From assembly GCA_903859215.1 (NCBI GenBank), contig CAIOLW010000036.1:1-64000 (forward strand): a stretch of 64,000 nucleotides of DNA, read 5' to 3'. Source of the DNA: an uncultured bacterium. GTDB taxonomy: Bacteria > Krumholzibacteriota > Krumholzibacteriia > LZORAL124-64-63. The translations under genes and the position numbers were made by a program. Under the pieces are notes generated by a model that saw nothing but the letters and a program-made list of their open reading frames with translations, was not told where the DNA came from and searched no databases. Positions 6,213 to 21,348 of this stretch are shown here, piece after piece (the first letter of the stretch is position 1; every line of letters starts with the position of its first letter).

Positions 6213-7183
6213 CGAGGGACCTGTACCTGGGCATCGACACCGGCGGCACGGCCGTCAAGTACGAGGTGGCCGCGGCCGACGGGACAACGCTCGGCGGCGG
6301 CGAGGTGCCGACCGACCCGCGCGATGTCGCAGCGACCCTGCGCGCCCTGGCTGCCGATGCCGCGCCCCTGCTCGGCGGCGCCGCGCTGCCGCGCCTGGCT
6401 GCCGTCGGCATGGCCTGCGCCGGCATCGTCAACCCGGTGACCGGCCACCTCGGGCGGTCGCCGAACCTGCCCGGCTGGGAGAATTCCGACCTCGGCGGCG
6501 CCGTCTCGGCCGCGTTCGGCGGCGTGCCGTCCGCGCTGGCCAACGACGTCAACGGCGCGCTGTACGGCGAATACCGGCACGGCGCCGGCCGCGGCTGCCG
6601 CGACGTCGTGATGATCGCGCTCGGCACCGGCGTGGGCGGCGGCGTCATCGTCGACGGCAAGCTGCTCGTCGGCACGCACTTCGGCGCCGGCGAGATCGGG
6701 CACATGGTCCTGGACGAGGACGGGCCGCCCTGCACCTGCGGCAGCCGCGGCTGCCTTGAGGCCTGGGCCGGCAGCACGGGCCTGCTGCGGGCGACGCGCG
6801 AACTGGTCGCCGCCGGCGGCGCCTCGACCGCGCTGGTCGCCCTGGCGGGCGCTCGCGGCGCGGACCTGACCACGCGCGACCTCGCGGAACTCGCCGAGGC
6901 CGGCGATGCCGCGGCACGCGCCGTCTTCGCCGCGGCGGGCCGCAAGCTGGGCCAGGCGGTGGCCAACCTCGTCAACGTGCTGGACCCCGATCGCGTCATC
7001 ATCGGCGGCGGCGTGGCGCGCGCCGGCGACCTGATCCTCGAGCCCTGTCGCGAGCGCGCGACGCCGCTGATCCTGGCGACCGAGGCCCGCCACCTGCCCA
7101 TCGTTCCGGCCGAACTGGGGCCCCGCGCCGCGGCGGTCGGCGCCGCCAGCCTGGCTCGCGAGAAAGTCCGGGCAGGCGCCTGA
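6209..7183 (+). CDS. ROK family sugar kinase (glucokinase-like)
   Basis: The 324-residue protein starts at GTG 6209, overlapping folC by four bases, and opens with the ATPase loop GIDTGGTAVKYEV. It contains ALGTGVGGGVIVDGKLL, GEIGHM and the ROK zinc motif CTCGSRGCLEAWAG, followed by NVLDPDRVIIGGGVA. ROK enzymes of this length with an intact zinc motif are usually glucokinases (glucose to glucose-6-phosphate), but N-acetylmannosamine or fructose kinases look alike, so the substrate stays open. There is no DNA-binding N-terminus, so it is a kinase rather than a repressor. Confidence 0.9.
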   Translation: MTRDLYLGIDTGGTAVKYEVAAADGTTLGGGEVPTDPRDVAATLRALAADAAPLLGGAALPRLAAVGMACAGIVNPVTGHLGRSPNLPGWENSDLGGAVSAAFGGVPSALANDVNGALYGEYRHGAGRGCRDVVMIALGTGVGGGVIVDGKLLVGTHFGAGEIGHMVLDEDGPPCTCGSRGCLEAWAGSTGLLRATRELVAAGGASTALVALAGARGADLTTRDLAELAEAGDAAARAVFAAAGRKLGQAVANLVNVLDPDRVIIGGGVARAGDLILEPCRERATPLILATEARHLPIVPAELGPRAAAVGAASLAREKVRAGA

Positions 7184-10100
7184 TGAAGTCACGCGGGCGC
7201 ACAGCGGCCGGGATCGCCCTCGGCCTCGCGGCGTTCGCGCTGCTGGCGCCGGCCACGGCCCGGTCACAGCTCCCGCAGTCGCGAGTGCGCGCCGACAAGC
7301 TGGTCGACCAGCTCGTCGGCGGCCACACGATCTCCTGCATGTACGGCAACGTCTTCATCGACCGCGACAGCGTCACGGCCGCCGCGGACACCGCCTACTT
7401 CGCCCGCGACACCGACCAGTACGACCTGCAGGGCAACGTGCGCCTGACGCGCGGCGCCTCGGTGCTCACGTGCCGCCGCGCGCACTACGACCAGCGCACG
7501 GCCGCGAGCGCGTTTGCCGGCGACGTCCGCGTCACCGAGAACGACGTCACCGGCAGCGGCGCGACCGGCGACAGCCGCGGGAACGGGCGCTGGCTGAGCC
7601 TGCGGGGCGAGGCGCTGCTCGTCGCGCCCGAATACACGGTCCGTGGCGACACCATCACGCAGGACCGGCAGACCTCGACTGGCGAGGCGTTCGGCCATGT
7701 CCGCATCGTCGAGCCGGGCGCGACCAATCTCGTGACCGGTGGCCACGCCGTTTTCGACCGCCGCGCCGACACCGCGGTCGTCGACCGCGCGCCCGAACTG
7801 ACCAGCCGCAGCAATCGTGGCGGCCTGCTCGTGGCCGAGTCCCGCCTGATGCGGCTGTTCCGCGCCGAGGACCGCGTCGTGATGATCGACTCGGTGCGCA
7901 TCCGGCAGGCGCTGGGCACGGCCCGCGCCGACACGGCCGTGGCGCTGGGGCGCCAGCGGCTGGTGCTGACCGGTTCGCCGCGGGTGAAACTGAATCGCGG
8001 CACCGTGCTCACCGGCGAGCGCATCGAGTTCGAGTACGTCGGCGAGCAGTTGCGACGCGTCATCCTGACCGGGACCGCGCGCACGGCCGACGATGGCCCC
8101 GATTCGCTGGCGAACCTGTATCCCGGCCTGCCGAGGCAGGACGTGCTCGAGGGCGACGCCATCGCGATCGACTTCGAGGACGAGGAGGTCCGCCGGACCG
8201 AGGTGATCGGCCACGCGCGCAGCGTCTACACGCCGCTCGACGTCGGCGCCGAGGTGGCCACCAACGACGTGTCCGGCGACACCATCATCGTCTACTTCCG
8301 CGACCAGGAGGTGCGGCGGGTCCGCGTCCTGGGCAAGGCCGCCGGCAAGTACCGCTTCGCGCAGGTGGCGGCCTGGGCGACCCGCCGCGCGGCCGGCGAG
8401 GCGGATTCCCTGGCAGCCGTCGCCGTTCCCGACAGCGCTGCCGCCGCGGCAGCGTCCACCGCCCCGGATTCCGCCGCCGCAACCGGGCGCGGGCCTTCGT
8501 TCGAGACCGCCGCCGAACTCGTCGACTATGCCGGTGATCGCGTCACGTTCGAGCTGCGCGAGCGTTCAATGGCCATCGACGGCCGGAGCCGGCTGGACTA
8601 CGGGAAGACCAAGCTCAAGGCGCGCCAGGTGCGCCTGGCGATGAACACGCGCGAACTCTACGCCGCGGGCGAGCCCATCGCCGAGGACGACGACAAGGTC
8701 ACCGGGCAGCGCATGGGCTACAATTTCCGCAACCGCACGGCCGTCGTCGACTCGGGCGTCACGTCGTTCGACGACTACTACTACGTGGGCAAGGGCATCC
8801 GTCGCTTCGGCGACGAGACGATGAAGATCGATGGCGGGCGCATGACCTCGTGCGACCTCGAGGAGCCGCACTACCACTTCTGGTCGAAGCGCATGAAGAT
8901 GAAGCCCGGCGACAAGGTCGTCGCCGCGCCGATCGTCCTGAAGATCGGGAACGTCCCGGTCTTCGCGCTGCCGTTCTACTTCAAGAACCTGCAGGAGGGC
9001 CGTCGTTCCGGCGTGCTGTTCCCGACGTTCGACTTCGGCTGGTCCAGCCGCGAGGGCCGCTACATCCGCGACCTCGGCTACTACTGGGCGATCAGCGACT
9101 ACCTCGACATCCTGGTGCAGGGCGACTACAACGAGCACAGCGATGCGGCGCTGCGTTCGTCGACCCGCTACGTCAAGCGCTACGCCTACAGCGGCGGCAT
9201 CGACTGGTCGCGACGCGACGGCCTCGGCACGGACGCCTCGCGCCAGTGGCAGTTGTTCTGGTACCACAACCAGCCGGCGCTCCTGGACGACTACCAGTTC
9301 CGCTCCGACGTCCGGCTGGCCTCGAACACGCTCAGCCGGAACGACCTGACGGGCTCCGGCTCGCGAGACATCGTCAGCGGCCAGTTCAAGTCCAGCGCCT
9401 ACCTGAGCCGCAACTGGTCGCTGCTGAGCGCCAGCCTCAACGCGAGCCGCGACGGCCGTGTCAACGCCACCGACCAGCTGAACACCACCGACAACCTGCT
9501 CTACAACATGACACTGCCCTCGCTGTCGTTGAACTTCCGCCAGATGGCCCTGGCCCCGGCCCTGACGGCCGGCCGGCACGGCAGCCCGTTCGGCGACCTG
9601 TTGCGCGCCACCTATTTCCAGCAGGGCTACGCGCTGAACCAGGTCCGCGCCGGCTACGAGGAGCACGACGTCCGCACGCTGGGCGCCTCGGGCAACTGGT
9701 CGTTGCGCGTGCAGCCGCCGCGCCTGGGCATCTTCAACTTCGGCCTCAACGCCACGGCCCGGCAGGGCTGGCAGCGCCAGTCCACGGCCGGCCGCAGCTG
9801 GCTCGCCGACGGCGCGGGCGGCGGCACGTGGCAGCCCCTGTCCGGGCGCGTCGAGTCGACCAGCCCGGCCGTGTCGTTCGGCGCGTCGCTGGGCACCACG
9901 CTGTACGGCCTCTTCCCGGCGCACATCGGCCCCCTGCGGGCCATCCGCCACACCGTGCGCGTGGCCAGCAGCTGGAACGTGTCGCCCGCCCTCGGCGACA
10001 AGCAGCCGTACAGCACGTCGCTCAGCCTGTCGCTCGACCAGCGCTTCGACGTGAAGTACCGGCCGGGGGGCGCCGACACGACCGCGGCCGACCGGAAGCT

Positions 10101-10914
10101 GGACGGCGTGATCGACTGGACGCTGGGCACGGGCTACAACCCGCGCCGACCCGCGGGGCAGCGCTGGAGCGACATCTCCAGCGGATTGACGATCAAGCCC
10201 GGGCAGAGCCGCTACCTGCAGCTGAAGGTGAGCAACACCATCGACGCGCAGAAACTGGCCCTGCGCGACACGCGATTCAGTTACGGCGTGAACTTCAGCG
10301 GCCGACTCGACCTCGGGAAGGTGGCGGTCGAGGCGGACCGCAAGCGCAACCCGGCCATCGAGCGCCTGGGGCTGCCCGCGGCCGGCGCCGATTCGACCGC
10401 TGCCCGGAAAAAGACGGAGGGCAACGTGCCGGACGGCCGCGAGCGCAGCGGCGCAAACGGCGTGTTCGACGGCTCGAACGCCGACTTCGACGCGGCGGCC
10501 CGGGAAGAGGAATCGACGCGCGGCGCCACCGGCAAGGGCAGCCGCGACCTGACCGAGGGCGGCCGCTACCTGCCGTTCCAGACCAGCGGCTCGCTCAGCT
10601 ACTCGTACATGAACGCCACGGGGGACCGCCGCGCCAGCGCCAACGTCTCGGTGCGCGCGAACCTCAGCCGCTACTGGGAATTCAACTACCAGACGTCGTT
10701 CGACCTGGTCACCGGGGCGGCGCTCCGGCAGCAGTACACGCTCGGCCGCGACCTGCACTGCTGGCGCCTGGAGTTCAACCGCACCGTCAGCAGCATCGAC
10801 AGCCAGTTCGGTTTTCGTGTCTTCCTGAAGGCGATCCCCGCCCTCAAGTTCACCCGCGGCCGCGAGGACTACATGGGTTCGCTGGGTGACGGCCTCGGCG
10901 GCGGCTTTTACTAG
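7183..10914 (+). CDS. lptD: LPS-assembly outer membrane protein LptD (OstA-like)
   Basis: The 1243-residue protein has a signal peptide (AGIALGLAAFALLAPATARS), an N-terminal periplasmic OstA/LptA-like beta-jellyroll region (about residues 35-360, with repeats such as QGNVRLTRG and ASVLTCRRAHYD), an alanine-rich linker near 400-435, a second OstA-like segment, and a long C-terminal beta-barrel whose strands alternate aromatic and polar residues. LptD inserts lipopolysaccharide into the outer leaflet. It is longer than the proteobacterial form (about 780), as is common in FCB bacteria, and may combine LptA and LptD functions. Its ATG overlaps the ROK stop codon by one base. An acidic, glycine-rich insertion near residues 1060-1130 is probably a surface loop. 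Confidence 0.88.
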   Translation: MKSRGRTAAGIALGLAAFALLAPATARSQLPQSRVRADKLVDQLVGGHTISCMYGNVFIDRDSVTAAADTAYFARDTDQYDLQGNVRLTRGASVLTCRRAHYDQRTAASAFAGDVRVTENDVTGSGATGDSRGNGRWLSLRGEALLVAPEYTVRGDTITQDRQTSTGEAFGHVRIVEPGATNLVTGGHAVFDRRADTAVVDRAPELTSRSNRGGLLVAESRLMRLFRAEDRVVMIDSVRIRQALGTARADTAVALGRQRLVLTGSPRVKLNRGTVLTGERIEFEYVGEQLRRVILTGTARTADDGPDSLANLYPGLPRQDVLEGDAIAIDFEDEEVRRTEVIGHARSVYTPLDVGAEVATNDVSGDTIIVYFRDQEVRRVRVLGKAAGKYRFAQVAAWATRRAAGEADSLAAVAVPDSAAAAAASTAPDSAAATGRGPSFETAAELVDYAGDRVTFELRERSMAIDGRSRLDYGKTKLKARQVRLAMNTRELYAAGEPIAEDDDKVTGQRMGYNFRNRTAVVDSGVTSFDDYYYVGKGIRRFGDETMKIDGGRMTSCDLEEPHYHFWSKRMKMKPGDKVVAAPIVLKIGNVPVFALPFYFKNLQEGRRSGVLFPTFDFGWSSREGRYIRDLGYYWAISDYLDILVQGDYNEHSDAALRSSTRYVKRYAYSGGIDWSRRDGLGTDASRQWQLFWYHNQPALLDDYQFRSDVRLASNTLSRNDLTGSGSRDIVSGQFKSSAYLSRNWSLLSASLNASRDGRVNATDQLNTTDNLLYNMTLPSLSLNFRQMALAPALTAGRHGSPFGDLLRATYFQQGYALNQVRAGYEEHDVRTLGASGNWSLRVQPPRLGIFNFGLNATARQGWQRQSTAGRSWLADGAGGGTWQPLSGRVESTSPAVSFGASLGTTLYGLFPAHIGPLRAIRHTVRVASSWNVSPALGDKQPYSTSLSLSLDQRFDVKYRPGGADTTAADRKLDGVIDWTLGTGYNPRRPAGQRWSDISSGLTIKPGQSRYLQLKVSNTIDAQKLALRDTRFSYGVNFSGRLDLGKVAVEADRKRNPAIERLGLPAAGADSTAARKKTEGNVPDGRERSGANGVFDGSNADFDAAAREEESTRGATGKGSRDLTEGGRYLPFQTSGSLSYSYMNATGDRRASANVSVRANLSRYWEFNYQTSFDLVTGAALRQQYTLGRDLHCWRLEFNRTVSSIDSQFGFRVFLKAIPALKFTRGREDYMGSLGDGLGGGFY

Positions 10915-10935
10915 GCACAGGTAACCCCTTTCTTG

Positions 10936-10964
10936 TTGACAGGATTTCTTTATGGCGTTGTCAT
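10936..10964 (+). promoter_or_regulatory. Predicted promoter of the HU gene, next to an inverted repeat covering the ribosome-binding site
   Basis: TTGACA (10936-10941) is a consensus -35 box; TGTCAT lies 17 bases downstream (10959-10964). CCCCTTTC at 10925-10932 is the exact reverse complement of GAAAGGGG at 10972-10979, which contains the HU ribosome-binding site. If a longer transcript comes from lptD, this hairpin could hide the site; from the local promoter it could not form. Confidence 0.6.
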
Positions 10965-10988
10965 CACCCCTGAAAGGGGGCGACAGCC

Positions 10989-11282
10989 ATGAACAAGACC
11001 GAACTCATCGAGGAAGTGGCCCGACGCACCGGTACAAGCGTGGCGGCTGCCCGTCGCACCGTCGACGCCCTGTTCTCCACGGCCCCGCGCGAAGGCATCA
11101 TCGCGGGCGTGGTGGCCAAGGGCGACAAGGTGCAGATCACGGGATTCGGGACCTTTGAGCGGCGCCGCCGGAAGAAGAGGGCGGGACGCAACCCGCAGAC
11201 CGGCGACGAACTGATCATCCCCGGCGGCAACTACCCGGCCTTCTCGGCCGGCAAGAGCCTCAAGGACCGCATCTGCAAGTGA
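10989..11282 (+). CDS. HU/IHF family DNA-binding protein
   Basis: The 97-residue protein has the whole HU fold: helical N-terminus (MNKTELIEEVARRTGTS), the turn ITGFGTFERRRR, and the DNA-minor-groove arm RAGRNPQTGDELIIP, ending SAGKSLKDRI. The proline at the arm tip (GRNPQTG) is the intercalating position. HU dimers bend and compact DNA. AAAGGGGG lies 8 bases upstream of ATG 10989. The gene has its own promoter and terminator, so it is probably monocistronic. Confidence 0.96.
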   Translation: MNKTELIEEVARRTGTSVAAARRTVDALFSTAPREGIIAGVVAKGDKVQITGFGTFERRRRKKRAGRNPQTGDELIIPGGNYPAFSAGKSLKDRICK

Positions 11283-11489: not shown

Positions 11490-12857
11490 ATGAACCCGAA
11501 GAAGGGTTGGCTCACGCTCCTGGGAGTGTGCCTGACGCTGGTCGCCGCTGTTGCGCTCGCGGCCGGCACCGGCACCGCGCCCAAGGCCGCGCCGGGGCCG
11601 CACCGGGACTGGAAGAACATCAGCGTGCTCTACCTGAGCGACATCAAAGGCAAAGTCGAGCCCTGTGGCTGAAAATCCCACCAGCGTGGTGGGCTGGCCC
11701 GGCGGGCTGCCTTTATGGACAAGGTGTTGCAGGAGAACAAGCCGCTGTTGCAGGTGGACGCGGGTGACGTGTTCGGTACGCGCAACCAGAACGAGCGCGA
11801 GCAGACGCGTTTCCTGTGCGAGGAACTGGGCACGTTCGGTCTCGACGCGATCGGGCTCGGCGAGCAGGACCTCAACTACGGCGTCGATTTCCTGCGCGAG
11901 ATGATGACGAAGAACAGCCTGCCTTTCATCAGCGCCAATGCGCGCGATGCGAAGACGGGCGAACTGCTGCTGCCGCCCTACCGGATCGTCGAGCGCAACG
12001 GCATCAAGTACGGCATCACCAGTGTGCTGGACCCGGCCGAGCAGATCATGACGCTGACCGGCGGCGAGGGCCAGTTCAAGGTGGACGACCCGGCGGCGAC
12101 GCTGAACGAGCTGCTGCCGAAGCTGCGCAAGGAATGCGCGTGCGTGGTCCTGCTGTCGCACCTGGGGGAAACGGGCACCGAGACGCTGCTCAAGGACCTC
12201 AAGGGTGTGGACATCTGCGTCATCGGGCACACGTTCCGCAACATCGAGACCGAGCGCGTCATCAACGACACGGCGGTGTTCAGCTCGGCGTACGAGGGAC
12301 GTTTCATCGGCCGGGCCAACCTCTTCATCGAGGTGCAGACCGGACGCGTGATGGCGATCGACGTCGGCATGATCGACTTCGACGACAAGATGCCGGACGA
12401 TCCGGAAGTCGTGGCCAAGATCGAGAAGTTCAAGGCCGACCTGACCGCGTTCAAGGATGCCAAGCGGGCGGCCTATCCGCGCGTGTACGGTTCGGACAAG
12501 GAGCAGTTCCTGGGCGACCGGACGTGCTTCAACTGCCACGAGGACGCCTGGAAGACCTACGCCGAGACGGGTCACCGGCGGGCCTTCACCAGCCTGCGCG
12601 GCGACGGCCAGAGCACCGAGCCGGACTGCCTGGTCTGCCACACGACCGGCTACCAGTACAAGAACGGCTACTCGGACGAGCGCCCGTTCAACAGCCTGGT
12701 GAACGTGCAGTGCGAGGCGTGCCACAGTTACGGCACCACGCACGCGCGCGACGGCAAGTGGCGCCTGCAGGCCCGCAACTCCTGCGTGACCTGCCATGAC
12801 AAGGCCAACAGCCCGAATTTCGACTATGAGACGTACTGGGCGAAGATCAAGCACTAG
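11490..12857 (+). CDS. Secreted metallophosphatase-like tetraheme cytochrome c, predicted selenoprotein (in-frame TGA at 11670-11672)
   Basis: Reading TGA 11670-11672 as selenocysteine gives a 455-residue protein with U61. It starts at ATG 11490 after AAGAGGT with a signal peptide (LLGVCLTLVAAVALAAG). Next comes a metallophosphoesterase-like region: VLYLSDIKGKVEPCG-U-KSHQRGGLARR, VDAGDVF, GLGEQDL, LLSHLGE and IGHTF, which resemble the metal-ligand blocks of 5'-nucleotidases with the last one degenerate. The C-terminal 120 residues carry four CxxCH heme sites (CFNCH, CLVCH, CEACH, CVTCH), as in cytochrome c554-type proteins. From memory, relatives have EPCGC followed by GGLxRR, so the TGA replaces the cysteine codon. 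The alternative is a gene broken by a nonsense mutation. The electron partner and substrate are unknown. Confidence 0.8.
11677..11709 (+). promoter_or_regulatory. Candidate bacterial SECIS element
   Basis: Two hairpins follow the TGA. The distal one pairs TGGCCC (11695-11700) with GGGCTG (11704-11709; four Watson-Crick pairs plus two G-U) and has apical loop GGC, beginning 28 bases after the TGA. A GG-containing apical loop 16-37 bases downstream is the known pattern of bacterial SECIS elements. The proximal one, CCCACC/GGTGGG (11677-11682 and 11688-11693), is a perfect stem with loop AGCGT but is closer (10 bases) than usual. Which one SelB would read cannot be decided here. Confidence 0.6.
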
Positions 12858-13674
12858 AAGATCAAGCACCGGGGGCGCCGGCGCTGCGCGCGCCATCGCC
12901 ATCGCTGCCCTGTTCGTGGCGTCGGGGGTGCGGCCGGTCCGCGCCCTCGACGTTTTCACGCTCTGGCGCCAGCCGAACGTGCCGCTGCACATGGCCGAGG
13001 GCGAGTGGGCCGACTACCGCTTCCAGGTCACGGCGGGCGGGCGGCAGGAGCAGAGCCTGACGCGCGTGGCCTGCCTCGACCGTGCCGCCGGCACCGACGA
13101 CCAGGCCTGGGTCGTCGAGGTGCTGCCGCTGGCCGAGGAACCGGGCGGGCGCCTGGTCCCCGTGCCGGGCGAAGGCCTGCGCCTGCGCCTGTCGCGCAAG
13201 CTGCTTTCGCGGACCGGCAGCCTGCTCGACCACGTCCTGGGCGCGAAGCAGTGGACCGGAGGGCGCGCGACCGAACTGTCGGCGGCCCAGCTGCGCGGCG
13301 ACCCGCTGATCGCCGATTCCTTCCGCGAGGACTTCCTGGCCTCCACGGTGACCACCGGCCAGCCGACCACCCGGGTGATCGGCGGCGTCCAGTACCTGTG
13401 CGACCAGTCGGTGATGGCCGCGGCCGACACCCAGGTGGCGGCGCTGCCGGCCGGGAACCTCCGCCAGGTCACCACGCGGGAACTGACGGCCGCCACGAAC
13501 CCCGATCTGCCCTTCCTGGGCCTCGCTTACGCCACCGAGAGGGTGCGCGCCGACTCGTCCCTGGACCGCCCCGGGGGGCGCCTGCGGCCGCCACCGGCCC
13601 GGGTCCGGGTCGAAGTCATGGAACTGGTGGCCCACGGAAAGGGCGCCCGGCCCGTGCTCGGCCGTACCGATTGA
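12826..13674 (+). CDS. Secreted protein of unknown function
   Basis: I do not recognise this 282-residue protein. It has a basic N-terminus (RRTGRRSSTRRSS) and a hydrophobic segment (AIAIAALFVASG) ending at VRA-LDV, so it is probably exported with a Sec signal peptide. The mature part is rich in Arg, Ala and Leu with no cysteine cluster, repeats or membrane segment; blocks such as EGEWADYRFQV and GGVQYLCDQSVMAAAD recall soluble periplasmic proteins. The ATG at 12826 overlaps the end of the cytochrome gene by 32 bases; the next in-frame start codon lies inside the signal peptide. It is probably cotranscribed with the cytochrome gene and could serve it. Confidence 0.6.
   Translation: MRRTGRRSSTRRSSTGGAGAARAIAIAALFVASGVRPVRALDVFTLWRQPNVPLHMAEGEWADYRFQVTAGGRQEQSLTRVACLDRAAGTDDQAWVVEVLPLAEEPGGRLVPVPGEGLRLRLSRKLLSRTGSLLDHVLGAKQWTGGRATELSAAQLRGDPLIADSFREDFLASTVTTGQPTTRVIGGVQYLCDQSVMAAADTQVAALPAGNLRQVTTRELTAATNPDLPFLGLAYATERVRADSSLDRPGGRLRPPPARVRVEVMELVAHGKGARPVLGRTD
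12843..12869 (+). repeat. Short tandem duplication across a stop codon
   Basis: AAGATCAAGCAC occurs at 12843-12854, followed by the stop TAG, then again at 12858-12869. The first copy is the last four sense codons of the cytochrome gene; the second lies inside the next gene's signal peptide region. Confidence 0.9.
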
Positions 13675-20199: not shown

Positions 20200-21348
20200 A
20201 TGCCTGACCCGGTCGGCCCCTGGCTGGCCATCGACGTCGATCGCGCGGCGCTGGCCGACAATCTCCGCGCGTTCCGTCGGCAGACCGCCGCGTCGTCGGC
20301 ATTGCTGGCCGTCGTGAAGGCGGACGCCTACGGGCACGGCCTGTGCCTGGCGGCGTCCGCCTTTCTCGATGGCGGCGCCGACCTGCTCGGCGTGCACGCG
20401 CTGCACGAGGCGCGCTCGCTGCGCCAGGCCGGGATCACGGCGCCGGTCATCGTGCTCGGCCCGTCGACGGCGGCGGAAGCCGCGGAAGCGGCGCGGCTGG
20501 GCGTCGAGATCACCGTGGCGTCCGCACCCGGCGTGCGGGCCGCCGCCGCCGCCGCCAGCGCCGAATTTCCCCTGTCCGTGCATTTGAAGGTCGAGACCGG
20601 CGTCAACCGCCAGGGCCTCGTCGAGGCCGAACTCGCCGACGCCGCGCGGTCCCTGCGCGCGGCGCCCGGCCTGCGGCTGGCCGGCCTGTCGAGCCACTAC
20701 GCCGATATCGAGGACACCACCGATCACTCGTTCGCCGAACTGCAGACACACCGCTTCGAGGCGATGCGCTCGCAGCTGGCCGGGGCCGGCGTGACCGGCC
20801 TGCGCGAGCACATGAGCTGCAGCGCCGCGGCGCTGCTGTGGGAACGCAGCCACCGCGCGATCGTGCGCGTGGGCATCGGCGCCTACGGCGTGTGGCCGTC
20901 GAAGGAAACGCGCGTGTCGGTGCGCCAGCAGGGCCGGCCCGAACTGGTGCTGCGGCCCGCGCTGACCTGGAAGGTGATGATCTCGCAGGTGCGCGACGTG
21001 CCGGCCGGGCAGACGGTCGGCTACGGGCGCACCTGGAAGGCGATGACCGACAGCCGCATCGCCGTGCTGCCGGTGGGCTACGCCGACGGCTGGCCGCGCG
21101 CCCTGTCCGGCCGCGGGCACGTGCTGGTGGGCGGCCGTCGCGCGCCGCTGGTCGGGCGCATCTGCATGAACCTCTGCATGGTCGACGTCACCCACGTCCC
21201 GGGCGCCGCTGCCGGTGACCATGCGGTGCTGCTCGGCCGGCAGGGTGACGAGGTCATCAGCGCCGAGATGCTGGCCGACCTGCTCGGCACGATCCCCTAC
21301 GAAGTGCTCACGCTGCCGGGCCCGGCCTGGACGCGCGTGGGCGTCTGA
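20200..21348 (+). CDS. alr: Alanine racemase
   Basis: The 382-residue protein has the PLP-barrel N-terminus with the catalytic lysine in AVVKADAYGHG (K40), LKVETGVNRQGL, SCSAAAL and RVGIGAYGVWPS, and a C-terminal beta domain with VGYADGWPRAL and GRICMNLCMVDV, the typical alanine racemase blocks. It interconverts L- and D-alanine for peptidoglycan. ATG 20200 lies four bases after the fur stop; upstream in-frame ATGs would fall inside fur. Confidence 0.95.
   Translation: MPDPVGPWLAIDVDRAALADNLRAFRRQTAASSALLAVVKADAYGHGLCLAASAFLDGGADLLGVHALHEARSLRQAGITAPVIVLGPSTAAEAAEAARLGVEITVASAPGVRAAAAAASAEFPLSVHLKVETGVNRQGLVEAELADAARSLRAAPGLRLAGLSSHYADIEDTTDHSFAELQTHRFEAMRSQLAGAGVTGLREHMSCSAAALLWERSHRAIVRVGIGAYGVWPSKETRVSVRQQGRPELVLRPALTWKVMISQVRDVPAGQTVGYGRTWKAMTDSRIAVLPVGYADGWPRALSGRGHVLVGGRRAPLVGRICMNLCMVDVTHVPGAAAGDHAVLLGRQGDEVISAEMLADLLGTIPYEVLTLPGPAWTRVGV

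Follow-up and report, generated by a model that had tools for sequence, protein, structure and literature searches.

The window, by which we mean the whole 64,000-nucleotide stretch of DNA analysed here, comes from an uncultured bacterium whose closest named relatives are metagenome-assembled genomes of Candidatus Krumholzibacteriota. On its forward strand we observed a gene of 455 codons that is interrupted by a single in-frame TGA, corresponding to residue 61 and set in the context VLYLSDIKGKVEPCG-U-KSHQRGGLARR with the motif EPCG-U (Table 1). A first-pass annotation of this DNA had recorded the split frame, the signal-peptide-like N-terminus, the residues flanking the TGA and the four CxxCH motifs, all of which are indeed present, and its proposal of a metallophosphatase-fold domain fused to a multihaem cytochrome is supported by our searches. 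Profile and Foldseek searches place the N-terminal domain with the UshA/CD73 5'-nucleotidases, and AlphaFold2 models most of this UshA-type domain confidently (blocks 41-330 at about 79-98) and the cytochrome part more weakly. The C-terminal part, which contains the four CxxCH motifs, matches Pfam as a c554-like domain. Judging from the sequence of its N-terminus, the protein is probably exported to the periplasm. With the U read as C, it scores highest in NCBIfam against NF041198, named 'UshA-like (seleno)protein' (UshA_like_PCGU; 273.7 bits, 2.7e-81), a score 1.3 bits under the curated cut-off of 275 bits; the profile stretches 20-268 and 352-519 were both matched, covering the UshA-like part followed by the cytochrome part.

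Table 1. Features of the selenoprotein gene and its downstream hairpins (window coordinates)
Feature	Position	Strand	Basis
UshA-like selenoprotein/tetrahaem c-type cytochrome	11490..12857	+	455 codons read through one TGA
Sec/SPI-type signal peptide (MNPKKGWLTLLGVCLTLVAAVALAA)	11490..11564	+	Sequence reading; N-terminus of relatives also hydrophobic
UshA/5'-nucleotidase-like metallophosphatase-fold domain, with replacements at most catalytic and at several metal-ligand positions	11607..12479	+	Profile, fold, alignment
PCGU motif (P58-C59-G60-U61), Sec codon TGA 11670-11672	11661..11672	+	Aligned homologues: only U or C
Perfect hairpin nearer the TGA (11677-11683 with 11687-11693), restricted to the genus, unlikely to be the SECIS	11677..11693	+	Conservation analysis
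SECIS hairpin, stem 11695-11700 with 11704-11709, apical loop GGC 11701-11703	11695..11709	+	Pairing, covariation, bacterial SECIS model
Haem site 1, CFNCH (residues 346-350)	12525..12539	+	Matches Pfam Cytochrome_C554 region
Haem site 2, CLVCH (residues 380-384)	12627..12641	+	Sequence and homologue alignment
Haem site 3, CEACH (residues 408-412)	12711..12725	+	Sequence and homologue alignment
Haem site 4, CVTCH (residues 432-436)	12783..12797	+	Sequence and homologue alignment

The gene neighbourhood consists mostly of housekeeping genes and is uninformative on function. Upstream (7183-11282) lie LptD and then a gene for an HU-family DNA-binding protein, in an order that by eye is similar at locus L029. 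The gene directly downstream (12856-13674) returned no Pfam match; by eye, a similar-looking gene occupies the downstream position at locus L093. A coding-bias scan of the window picked out two further TGA sites, at 21346 and 31448, with coding-like composition on both sides; as read from that composition, both are probably ordinary gene ends.

We searched 38 genomes ranging from the same genus to the same class, the window's own included, and 37 of them carry a copy of the family with exactly one in-frame TGA, the 37 being counted from the search listing and the place of the TGA codon being checked by alignment for those loci whose sequence was retrieved. Members scoring above the NF041198 cut-off occur in seven of the 38. 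The suggestion that the selenoprotein is new to this lineage was thus not borne out. Across 51 aligned homologue loci, codon 61 is TGA in 42 and TGC or TGT in nine, with no other codon observed (these are counts of loci and not of species, and the two locus sets overlap). Several of the Cys homologues, from other phyla, display EPCGC, in agreement with the earlier proposal that in this protein TGA stands in place of a Cys codon. An in-frame UGA that homologues replace by Cys is a recognized mark of bacterial selenoproteins. Three shorter homologues of the same class (L027, L036 and L037), which have SCGC for PCGU and lack the cytochrome part, provide a natural Cys counterpart.

This pattern bears directly on the possibility that the TGA arose from a sequencing error, or that it is a genuine stop, leaving a pseudogene or two genes, the second being an ORF from the ATG at 11715. 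Mechanical ORF calling does begin a downstream ORF at that point, and TGA is an ordinary stop elsewhere in the window, for instance in the HU gene; nevertheless, dozens of independent assemblies share the TGA at this codon, the frame after it is conserved to the full 455 codons, and codon 61 is otherwise only Cys. The recurrence tells against the sequencing error that the first-pass annotation had named as a potential refutation. As a general explanation, error or termination is refuted, and we regard it as scarcely credible for the window. The idea that TGA encodes a common amino acid throughout the genome was also considered and rejected, as TGA ends ordinary window genes such as HU.

Downstream of the TGA we identified a hairpin whose stem starts about 23 nt after it and whose apical loop is separated from it by 28 nt. 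The bacterial SECIS model calls for a loop of 3-9 nt, a stem of 4-16 bp, a distance of 16-37 nt from the UGA, a G in the first two loop positions and a minimum free energy of at most -7.5 (PMC13188914); the window hairpin has the loop GGC, a 6-bp stem, the distance of 28 nt and -13.1 kcal/mol over a 28-nt hairpin stretch. The first-pass annotation was right in pointing to a downstream SECIS-type hairpin with a GG loop, though it is the apical loop GGC, and not the hairpin as a whole, that starts there, 29 nt after the TGA. Of 27 distinct Sec homologues, 26 form the complete six-pair stem, with compensatory changes and a 3-nt loop of GGC or GGA, in a set from which the divergent Sec loci L099 and L103, gapped or different-looking in the downstream stretch, were left out. 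In the alignment, 99.4% of the stem cells are paired, and covariation reaches 0.350 as against 0.216 when shuffled (0/500), these shuffle counts not being independent trials in that the 27 sequences share kinship. When the partner strand is slid by 1-3 columns, pairing falls to 30-55% and covariation to at most 0.100. Resampling of synonymous codons yielded a mean of 4.83 pairs and a maximum of 5.33 in 2000 trials, against the 5.96 observed, and in the nine Cys homologues just 1-4 pairs form at this position and the hairpin is absent. In 18 of the 27, the Arg pair has AGG as its second codon; four window genes contain 227 Arg codons, of which 4 are AGG. On its own, the window RNA does not exceed its shuffles in stability (z = -0.42), so that the case for the SECIS rests on comparative evidence; the folding comparison proposed earlier accordingly agrees with the SECIS model and gives no excess stability for the single sequence.

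The second perfect stem reported earlier also exists, but it lies nearer the TGA and is not conserved outside the genus: 58% of its cells are paired, and its covariation does not rise above shuffles. It was rejected as the SECIS on these grounds and for being too near the UGA for the bacterial model.

The machinery for selenocysteine incorporation was likewise sought, as the first-pass annotation had advised, and three of its four components were recovered from the window's genome by profile searches: selA (460 bits), selB (314 bits, with a complete 646-aa ORF) and selD (356 bits). The selD gene has a single in-frame TGA of its own (G000:C43:3506-4423, L075), like those of known Sec-containing SelD proteins. 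A search of the window's own assembly did not recover the fourth, selC, which encodes tRNA-Sec. It scores above the cut-off in 33 of the 38 genomes, including all three of the same genus, and ARAGORN called a tRNA-Sec at each of the five loci checked, the three same-genus ones among them. The tRNA-Sec of G002, a genome of the same genus, lies at L060:1501-1598; in the region surrounding it, matches in the window's genome are confined to the ends of contigs C157 and C313, and the tRNA stretch is missing. Comparison of these sequences suggests that the absence is an assembly gap at the C157/C313 contig break. The missing tRNA-Sec was set aside as evidence against selenocysteine, given that its locus falls in that break.

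On the weight of this sequence evidence, we are confident that the TGA at residue 61 encodes selenocysteine in an UshA-like selenoprotein. SelB and tRNA-Sec would read the UGA as Sec under the guidance of the hairpin with the GG loop 28 nt downstream. The use of selenocysteine, together with a covarying SECIS and the Sec machinery, is thereby supported in the uncultured phylum Candidatus Krumholzibacteriota. Standard annotation would cut the gene at 11490-12857 short.

We found no report of a function for the UshA-like (seleno)protein family in the literature searched. Among 31 homologues, the invariant positions of the N-terminal domain are C59, G60, residue 61 (C/U), G67, G68, G92, G131 and G270. 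The window residues K53, E125, Q126, N129 and F249, which by motif matching we take to correspond to H43, N116, H117, D120 and Q254 of the E. coli UshA, lie at positions that vary among the same 31; D51, D90 and H247, at UshA metal-ligand positions, are kept in most members. The full complement of dinuclear metal ligands and catalytic His-Asp pair that marks a 5'-nucleotidase is hence not present. As most catalytic residues are lost while CG[U/C] is invariant, the domain is probably a redox centre, and we lean towards a selenol/thiol redox role coupled to the haems rather than a phosphatase activity. The redox or metal chemistry beside the haems that the first-pass annotation proposed for residue 61 is likewise a conjecture drawn from sequence. 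The CxU pair (Cys59-Gly-Sec61) would occupy the loop that follows strand one of the UshA-like fold, a place taken by metal ligands in genuine 5'-nucleotidases, and the domain may act as a selenol/thiol redox (or selenolate-metal) centre that exchanges electrons with the four C-terminal c-type haems.

Two other roles for this residue merit consideration. The clear UshA/CD73-type fold, the retention of D51, D90 and H247 and the proximity of the CGU loop to the metal site would all suit a working metal-dependent phosphatase or nucleotidase, with Sec as an accessory metal ligand and the haems as electron supply or structure; however, the catalytic His117/Asp120 and the ligands His43, Asn116 and Gln254 are replaced and variable at the matched positions, and NCBIfam separates NF041198 from the nucleotidase equivalogs, which renders such an enzyme unlikely, if the stronger of the two. 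Alternatively, the fusion to a tetrahaem domain might indicate that Sec61 serves as an axial ligand to a haem, or as a selenide with a structural role, and not as a redox centre. This we consider quite improbable: little is missing from the UshA-type part, whose predicted fold is separate from that of the cytochrome part, the conserved His362, His418 and His455 are on hand as axial ligands, and the exchange of Cys and Sec next to an invariant neighbouring Cys, here Cys59, is typical of thiol redox motifs. Returning to the redox reading, we are evenly divided on its fuller form, in which the family has converted a phosphatase fold to selenol/thiol redox use and coupled it directly to a tetrahaem wire, giving a new enzyme activity on a periplasmic substrate. 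For the NF041198 family, a domain that keeps CG[U/C] invariant and has lost most catalytic positions offers a testable hypothesis.

The window gene is a real selenoprotein gene and a further member of this already described family, not a new kind of selenoprotein. An UshA-like CxU selenoprotein family was reported in a 2008 ocean metagenome survey (PMC2398784) and is also listed in reviews of 2022 and 2026 (PMC9312934, PMC13188914). The earlier view of such a selenocytochrome as rare is not supported, with the family catalogued (NF041198; PMC2398784; PMC13188914) and the TGA copy as widespread in the lineage as described above. The window protein shares with NF041198 the domain order, a UshA-like domain followed by a c554-like multihaem domain at the C-terminus, the CG-[U/C] motif at the aligned position, found as EPCGU, and the Sec/Cys site; it differs in its slight shortfall against the curated cut-off and in its host, Candidatus Krumholzibacteriota. 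NF049981 (UshA-like selenoprotein family 2) likewise carries Sec close to this region of an UshA-like fold, but its own motif is CxxU, and the window protein attains only 37.5 bits against it (cut-off 140), matching over residues 45-124 alone. The fold and several motifs are common to the window protein, the E. coli UshA/CD73 5'-nucleotidases and SoxB; unlike these, the window protein is devoid of most catalytic residues and possesses the tetrahaem domain and the CGU motif. Selenocysteine in multihaem cytochromes has precedents in ExtKL (NF040886) and in the octahaem selenocytochrome of the tetrathionate reductase family (TIGR04315) (PMC13188914), which are families other than NF041198, set apart from it here by description and not by sequence.
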